NCBI RefSeq assembly: GCF_029233945.1
Contig: NZ_JARGOQ010000001.1
Span: 9,115 to 73,114 of the forward strand
Reading direction: 5' to 3'
Origin: Sneathiella sp.
Lineage (GTDB): Bacteria > Pseudomonadota > Alphaproteobacteria > Sneathiellales > Sneathiellaceae
DNA: 64,000 nt
A program made the position numbers and the translations under genes. Positions 53,517 through 54,688 of the stretch are shown one piece after another. Position 1 is the stretch's first letter; each line of letters opens with the position of its first letter. A model generated the notes under the pieces. That model was not told the DNA's origin. It saw nothing but the letters and a program-made list of their open reading frames with translations, and did not search any database.

Positions 53517-53624
53517 TTATTCGGCTTTTTGCGTCGGAAGGTGAAATTTTTTCTGTACCTTTTGACCATGAGCTATTATGTAAGGCGCTTCGAATTTTAG
53601 TTGGAAGCGAGTGGAGCTAGTCAC

Positions 53625-53831
53625 ATGACAGCGAGATCAGCACGGAATGGCCGCAATCAGGGCGGCAAGAGCCGTAAAAAAGGCGGCGGCGGAAGCGGGA
53701 GCGGCCTGACGAAGAACAGCCGGTCCAATATGCAGCGCGCTGCCCGTAAAATGAATCTGAAAGCCCATGGTCGTCACGCGGCCCGGCGTCAGTTGAAGAA
53801 AGTCCAGGCAGCGACACGCGCCGCGGCCTGA
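53625..53831 (+). CDS. Small, very basic protein (68 aa)
   Basis: The ATG at 53625 follows GGAG nine bases upstream. The protein is rich in Arg, Lys and Gly (SRKKGGGGSGSGLTKNSRS) with about 20 positive charges and no acidic stretch, like a nucleic-acid-binding or ribosome-associated protein. I do not recognise the family. A strong terminator follows at 53853. Confidence 0.5.
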   Translation: MTARSARNGRNQGGKSRKKGGGGSGSGLTKNSRSNMQRAARKMNLKAHGRHAARRQLKKVQAATRAAA

Positions 53832-53852
53832 GTATTATGCAGTAAAAAGATC

Positions 53853-53890
53853 AGGGCGGTTCCGGTGTTACCGGGGCCGCCCTTCTTTTT
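53853..53890. terminator. Bidirectional rho-independent terminator
   Basis: AGGGCGG (53853-53859) pairs with CCGCCCT (53877-53883), with a CCGG/CCGG inner stem, then TCTTTTT to 53890. Read on the minus strand, a CTTTTTAC tract also follows within a few bases, so it could end a minus-strand transcript from 54060. Confidence 0.75.
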
Positions 53891-53931
53891 GTGCCTTGGC
53901 AAAATATAAAATATGCGGATCTCCAAACCCC

Positions 53932-54051
53932 TCATATGAGTGTTTGCAGGGCTGTCCGCTGGTGGCACGTTGCTCTTCTGCGGTCTTTATGAGAAGAGAG
54001 GCCATCGCAGCAGGGGAGAGGCATCTGATTCGGATCATTGGGCATTTCCAT
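53932..54051 (-). CDS. Possible 39-residue Fur-controlled small protein or RNA
   Basis: A short frame (MEMPNDPNQMPLPCCDGL, then SSHKDRRRATCHQRTALQTLI) begins only about 13 bases after the predicted transcription start of a Fur-overlapped promoter. There is no clear ribosome site, so the transcript may be a non-coding RNA instead. It holds three cysteines. No family is recognised. Confidence 0.2.
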   Translation of the reverse strand: MEMPNDPNQMPLPCCDGLSSHKDRRRATCHQRTALQTLI

Positions 54052-54053
54052 AT

Positions 54054-54099
54054 TGCAAATGATTTGCATTATTAAATAACAGCCAGACGATCACGTCAA
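54054..54099 (-). promoter_or_regulatory. Minus-strand promoter overlapped by a Fur/Mur-like box
   Basis: On the minus strand, TTGACG (54099-54094) and TTTAAT (54076-54071) stand 17 bases apart, a near-ideal sigma-70 promoter. Just after it, TGCAAAT-G-ATTTGCA (54054-54068) is a perfect 7-1-7 palindrome of the kind bound by Fur-family regulators, covering the expected start site. No annotated gene follows in that direction except the small frame at 53932. Confidence 0.5.
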
Positions 54100-54136
54100 T
54101 AGATATTAAGAATCATTCGCAATATATTTTGGCAAT

Positions 54137-54688
54137 TTAGAGCTGATCAATGGCGATATAGCGCTCGCCTACATTGTCGTATCCGGCCTCATATGACCAG
54201 CCGTCCCGCTCAGCAGCGAGAATGATATTCGCGCAGGCCCGGCTGTCGGACAGGGCGTCATGGTGATTAAGATCCAATCCTAAGAAATGAGCGACATTGG
54301 GAAGCTTTGTCGGGCGCACTTCCCACATCCCTCGGGCGAGCTTGACCGTGCAGGTGAATTCCGGCTCCGGCATGCCGAGGCCATAGCGGGAGCAGCAGCT
54401 TTTGAGGACACGGGAATCAAAACCCGAATTATGCGCGGCAAGAAAATCCACGTCCTCAAAAAGGGGTTCGATATCGGGCCAGAGCAACCCGAAGTCCGGC
54501 GCATCCATTACATGTTCCCATGTCAGGCCATGGATATGAGTGAAAAAGAACTCCGGGCTCGGCGGGCGGATCAGAAAAGCCTCCTCATGAACAATCTTTC
54601 CGTTTTCCCCCCGGACGAGCCCGATGGCGCAGGCGCTATCGGGTGCGTTATTCGCCGTCTCAAAGTCAATCGCAAGAAATTTACTCAT
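54137..54688 (-). CDS. 3'-5' exonuclease of the DnaQ-like DEDDh family
   Basis: A 183-residue nuclease with all five DEDDh residues: Asp8 and Glu10 in AIDFETA, Asp91 in HNSGFD, His143 and Asp148 in HHDALSDS. The length suits a stand-alone proofreading or RNase T/ExoX-type enzyme rather than a polymerase subunit. It trims DNA or RNA from the 3' end. It follows the acyl-CoA ligase gene on the same strand by 29 bases. Confidence 0.9.
   Translation of the reverse strand: MSKFLAIDFETANNAPDSACAIGLVRGENGKIVHEEAFLIRPPSPEFFFTHIHGLTWEHVMDAPDFGLLWPDIEPLFEDVDFLAAHNSGFDSRVLKSCCSRYGLGMPEPEFTCTVKLARGMWEVRPTKLPNVAHFLGLDLNHHDALSDSRACANIILAAERDGWSYEAGYDNVGERYIAIDQL

Follow-up and report, generated by a model that had tools for sequence, protein, structure and literature searches.

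A predicted Fur-controlled gene for a small basic protein downstream of an exonuclease gene in Sneathiella

In a 64,000-nucleotide stretch of a Sneathiella genome (3.63 Mb in 114 contigs; the stretch is hereafter called the window), the gap between two convergent genes holds a minus-strand promoter overlaid by a Fur-like box, with no annotated gene behind it, which raises the question of what this promoter drives. An earlier reading, made from the sequence alone (here, the sequence-only reading), had offered an iron- or manganese-regulated small RNA or, alternatively, a 39-residue peptide. We consider it likely that the locus is instead a Fur-controlled gene for a small basic protein, predicted to be transcribed as a single-gene mRNA of about 220 bases. 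As a prediction, an iron-controlled transcription unit of this length and of the Fur type is well supported; the coding frame, the boxes, and the terminator are each supported by comparison of related genomes, as is the pairing of box and open reading frame (ORF), which are present or missing together, and we infer from sequence that Fur binds, that iron is the signal, and that the small ORF is translated.

Table 1. Positions, in window numbering, of the features recognized in the intergenic gap
Feature	Position	Strand	Remark or basis
Upstream Fur-like box TGCGAATGATTCTTA	54107..54121	-	Immediately before -35; sequence
-35 element TTGACG	54094..54099	-	Sequence
-10 element TTTAAT	54071..54076	-	17 bases from -35; sequence
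Fur-like box TGCAAATCATTTGCA	54054..54068	-	Over predicted transcription start; exact match
Shine-Dalgarno-like GGAA	54046..54049	-	6 bases 5' of ATG
Conserved small ORF, 56 aa, MIRIRCLSPAAMASLLIKTAEEQRATSGQPCKHSYEGFGDPHILYFAKAQKEGRPR	53868..54038, stop included	-	Comparison and coding tests
Bidirectional terminator	53845..53890	.	Stem 53853-53883

The gap lies between a plus-strand gene for a basic protein (ATG at 53625) and a minus-strand exonuclease gene (54137 to 54688), which converge as had been described. Along the minus strand, the elements follow one another in the order upstream box, TTGACG, 17 bases, TTTAAT, box, GGAA, ATG at 54038, 56-codon frame, and terminator stem (Table 1). The promoter that the sequence-only reading had pointed out was read directly at its place, and the perfect palindrome that it had put at the predicted start was recovered as an exact match, TGCAAATGATTTGCA, covering the start of the TTGACG-17-TTTAAT promoter. 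A sigma-70 scan passed this promoter over because it accepts only A as the second base of the -10 element. The bidirectional terminator was likewise confirmed; on the minus strand, its stem and the end of the ORF overlap, and the stop codon falls inside the loop. The second, partial box that had been suspected farther upstream is best placed just before the -35 element and was seen by eye in all 11 main-clade orthologs, being absent or weak in several outer orthologs. Conservation of the palindrome and terminator in relatives had been proposed as a check, and boxes, promoter, and terminator are indeed conserved: TTGAC is found in 14 of the 15 orthologs compared (the exception is L042) and additionally in L033, and GGAA or GGAG occupies the Shine-Dalgarno-like position in the 11 main-clade orthologs, the site being weaker in the outer ones.

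Of the 24 genomes of the genus, 22 have the exonuclease gene (the copy in G017 is partial), and in 16 of these 22 (16 of 24 for the genus) the promoter, the box, and the small ORF lie downstream of it. Six genomes (G005, G007, G009, G015, G019, and G023) have both flanking genes and the terminator and lack both the ORF and the box. A profile of the ORF, run against the 24 genomes, matched the same 16 at E values below 1e-13; it recovered no other convincing copies among the 24 genomes and no second copy in the genome holding the window. The two genomes without an exonuclease match (G010 and G020) are also without the small ORF, and one further copy lies on a Sneathiellales contig (L126). The exonuclease tree is poorly resolved, and the presence of the ORF changes at least four times on it. 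Since the gene is absent from 6 of the 22 genomes of the genus that have the locus, it is dispensable, and its natural absence in six relatives provides ready comparison strains.

Codon comparisons indicate that the small ORF evolves as protein-coding sequence. Over the first 25 codons of the 16 orthologs, 36% of the codon differences are synonymous; the two remaining same-strand frames give 7.7% and 4.2%, and column shuffles give 13.6% (standard deviation, 2.9; maximum, 21%). One antisense frame reaches 23%, but stops break it in most orthologs. Over its full length, the ORF has a dN/dS of 0.15 to 0.50 (10 pairs among the five closest orthologs), compared with 0.03 to 0.09 for the exonuclease, so the small protein is the faster changing of the two. 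These figures bear directly on the 39-residue peptide (53932 to 54051) suggested earlier, a frame free of stops in both the window and its closest relatives. It proved to be the wrong one: the other same-strand frames show 4 to 8% synonymous differences against the 36% of the conserved 56-residue frame, and no such ORF was seen in L030, L031, L032, L034, or L035, so that we give this peptide next to no chance of being the product.

The coding signal also weighs on the possibility that the transcript is a Fur-repressed regulatory small RNA of the RyhB, PrrF, or NrrF kind, in which the ORF would be incidental. A short transcript, an intrinsic terminator, and a Fur-type box would all suit such an RNA, and the full RNA with its terminator folds better than shuffled sequences (z = -2.84). 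Without the terminator, however, the fold is no better than that of shuffles (z = -0.29), of the 23 pairs in a nine-species consensus, 2 differ at both positions, for a covariation term of +0.18, and no Rfam family was matched on the minus strand. Folding against shuffles and the nine-species consensus support the terminator as the only conserved RNA structure, and a conserved coding frame with a strong coding signal nearly fills the transcript; a small RNA, as the sequence-only reading had it, is very improbable.

A transcript of dual function, encoding the protein and also acting as a base-pairing RNA, deserves separate consideration. Between the orthologs L025 and L027, third codon positions are unusually conserved (52 of 56, versus 121 of 183 in the exonuclease; P = 3.2e-5), as they are between L025 and L026 (P = 0.0087); the dS of the ORF is low in the closest trio, and RyhB has been reported to encode a peptide (PMC5331693). 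The other eight pairs show no such excess, with L027/L029 leaning the opposite way (P = 0.03), and the conservation may be regional, because the gene next to the ORF is also 96 to 97% identical in the close pairs L025/L027 and L025/L026. Moreover, as the stop codon sits in the terminator loop, little RNA lies outside the frame. The third-position conservation in close pairs would leave some slight room for a role of the RNA itself, and we regard dual function as unlikely, with the protein-coding mRNA as the preferred reading.

The exact box sequence TGCAAATNATTTGCA occurs once in the window and at one place genome-wide, plus one place at one mismatch. Perfect 7-1-7 palindromes of any sequence number 10 in the window, against 3.9 expected for random bases; by itself, such a palindrome is not rare, and it is the conservation across species that exceeds chance. 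Resemblance to a Fur site was scored with the Escherichia coli Fur consensus, to which random sequence and other parts of the window also give matches at 14 or more of 19 positions. Against this E. coli consensus, the best scores in the 16 orthologous promoters are 12 to 15 of 19 (mean, 13.9, versus 10.7 in shuffled promoters) and reach at least 13 in 15 of them. The L040 promoter (score 12) does no better than its own shuffles; apart from it, 10 of 200 shuffles reached the score of L032 and 7 that of L034, against 0 to 2 for each of the remaining promoters. In 15 of the 16 orthologs, a Fur-type 7-1-7 inverted repeat overlapping the promoter is kept in both position and type.

A pattern modeled on the box gave, at up to three mismatches, 134 strand-wise matches, versus 18 for the reversed control. 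With at most one mismatch, it was found at 24 places in the 24 genomes of the genus, 8 of which are the promoter described here. We inspected the other 16 together with two weaker sites in the genome holding the window (18 sites), naming the neighbors from one scanned example of each site group or from reading translations. Six of the 16 stand ahead of one and the same unknown protein of about 180 aa, three are flanked by a porin-like protein and an ABC exporter, and solute-binding proteins and HemP-like small proteins (a label given by eye) follow two sites each. The remaining three belong to a heme-type TonB receptor, an imelysin, and an Rrf2/glyoxalase-like pair, one site each. Of the two weaker sites, one is at the porin/ABC pair and the other at an ECF sigma factor. 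Because 9 of the 16 adjoin unknown or porin/ABC-type proteins, fewer than half of the sites speak for iron. The genome encodes three Fur-family genes (PF01475, over the cutoff), and for the best of their products the highest-ranking NCBIfam model is the ferric iron uptake regulator, with a score below the cutoff of that model.

The half sites of Mur boxes in alphaproteobacteria are of a similar TGCAAAT type, and with three Fur-family genes in the genome, the box could in principle be an operator for manganese-responsive Mur or another member of the family rather than for iron-Fur. The heme-type TonB receptor and the imelysin at other sites argue against this, and no manganese importer was recognized near the 18 inspected sites, all of them close to this box in sequence; we therefore hold such an operator to be quite improbable. 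Of the two metals named by the sequence-only reading, iron is favored by the boxes at iron-type genes and the encoded Fur, and manganese drew no comparable support from the inspected sites.

Several of these sites are of interest in their own right. The protein of about 180 aa (MHTPEVIPDSLSDLKYPEQLTLWSVRYWSDGLRQ...) stands directly behind the box at L259, L264, L270, L271, L273, and L276, in six genomes of the genus including the one holding the window; the member scanned has no Pfam or NCBIfam match, and we predict that this protein is a second unnamed Fur target. The box between the porin-like outer membrane protein, of which the one example scanned matched neither Pfam nor NCBIfam, and the divergent ABC exporter recurs at L260, L265, L268, and L272, in four genomes. 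A HemP-like small protein is present twice in G004 (L266 and L267; no Pfam or NCBIfam match for L266), both copies lying behind the same promoter-box arrangement. They share this layout, and the genus, with the small ORF of the gap, but no sequence resemblance to its product was seen.

The predicted product is 49 to 68 aa long in the 16 orthologs, with a net charge of +1 to +8 that is positive in every one. M1, R5, L7, L15, and E22 are invariant in the 16-row alignment, in which a conserved N terminus (M-[IV]-x-[IVL]-R-x-L) is followed by a helix ending near E22 and by a variable, basic tail. AlphaFold modeled the helix (residues 9 to 25) at a pLDDT of around 80 and the tail mostly at 50 to 60, with a whole-model pTM of 0.36; the helix is not strongly amphipathic (moments, 0.16 to 0.42). 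Pfam and NCBIfam contain no family matching the protein: Pfam searches with 14 members gave a single match (E = 0.1, in one member), and a PDB profile search gave two that we judged to be due to chance, the better one with an E value of 0.004 over 16 helix residues. No description of the gene was found in open-license PMC papers.

In a class-level sample of 385 genomes, 83 gave matches at E values of up to 1, nearly all evidently by chance, and 16 matches, a few of them from the same genus, were inspected for a start codon and a box. The sole inspected match outside the genus with both features is in G388, a free-standing 51-aa ORF (MIIIRYIEPEELAMALVDMAERYAARR...) with the right Met start and, just upstream, a Fur-type box scoring 14/15; boxes with this score occur in 3 of 335 tiles from loci L066 to L092, the G388 locus itself included. 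Its E value of 0.007 per genome means that about 2.7 such matches are expected over 385 genomes, and the ORF is absent from the other eight genomes of its family, which in the collection makes up the whole order. As the match is not significant over the 385 genomes and is absent from those eight, the G388 ORF is a tentative relative. The ORF at L067 (G171) starts with MLILRNLDPRDLGKLLIEAAE, an N terminus like that of the small protein, and has no Fur-type box upstream. Among the matches listed for a phylum sample of 398 genomes, none was judged convincing; plasmids gave one half-length match (E = 0.2) and phages none.

We propose that iron-loaded Fur, sitting on the box over the transcription start, would repress the promoter and that in the main clade it would also occupy the second box just upstream of the -35 element, shutting out RNA polymerase. 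As iron falls, the promoter would open, and a leader of about 26 bases with the Shine-Dalgarno-like site would allow translation into the 49- to 68-aa protein, transcription stopping at the stem that overlaps the stop codon. As to its role, our tentative first guess is that the protein is a small adaptor in the iron-starvation response, with a helix that might dock on a protein partner; a more doubtful second guess is action on RNA, as suggested for the Fbp proteins of Bacillus subtilis.

FbpA, FbpB, and FbpC of B. subtilis are presented in PMC7430163 as small basic proteins that are under Fur regulation and belong to the iron-sparing response. Going by that description, the Sneathiella protein would resemble them in being small (FbpB has 48 aa), basic, and apparently under Fur-type control, but B. 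subtilis belongs to a different phylum, and no partner small RNA is known for the Sneathiella gene. Closer at hand, CC0681 and CC0682 of Caulobacter crescentus are, by the account in PMC3751524, small, unannotated, and upregulated both when iron is low and when fur is mutated; it is proposed there that they act like Fbp proteins. They are comparable, again by description, as small hypothetical genes of an alphaproteobacterium under Fur repression, which for Sneathiella is predicted; unlike the single Sneathiella gene, they form, according to that account, a two-gene unit with candidate small RNAs. PMC11005374 lists RyhB, PrrF, NrrF, and FsrA as Fur-regulated small RNAs and states that the Fur regulon of Caulobacter has yielded no identified small RNA. 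With these RNAs, the Sneathiella transcript would share its shortness, predicted Fur control, and intrinsic terminator; it differs in that a conserved coding frame nearly fills it and that the terminator is its one conserved RNA structure.

With this gene, the probable iron response of the marine bacterial genus Sneathiella gains a small protein not recorded before. If the protein acts in iron sparing, alphaproteobacteria would have in it a protein-based equivalent of the Fur-regulated RNAs found in other groups.

The plus-strand neighbor (53625 to 53831) encodes a 68-residue basic protein rich in G, K, and R (MTARSARNGRNQGGKSRKKGG...), which has no Pfam or NCBIfam family match and is present in 22 of the 24 genomes of the genus; its 5' leader (about 53537 to 53624) appears, by eye, to be conserved in relatives.
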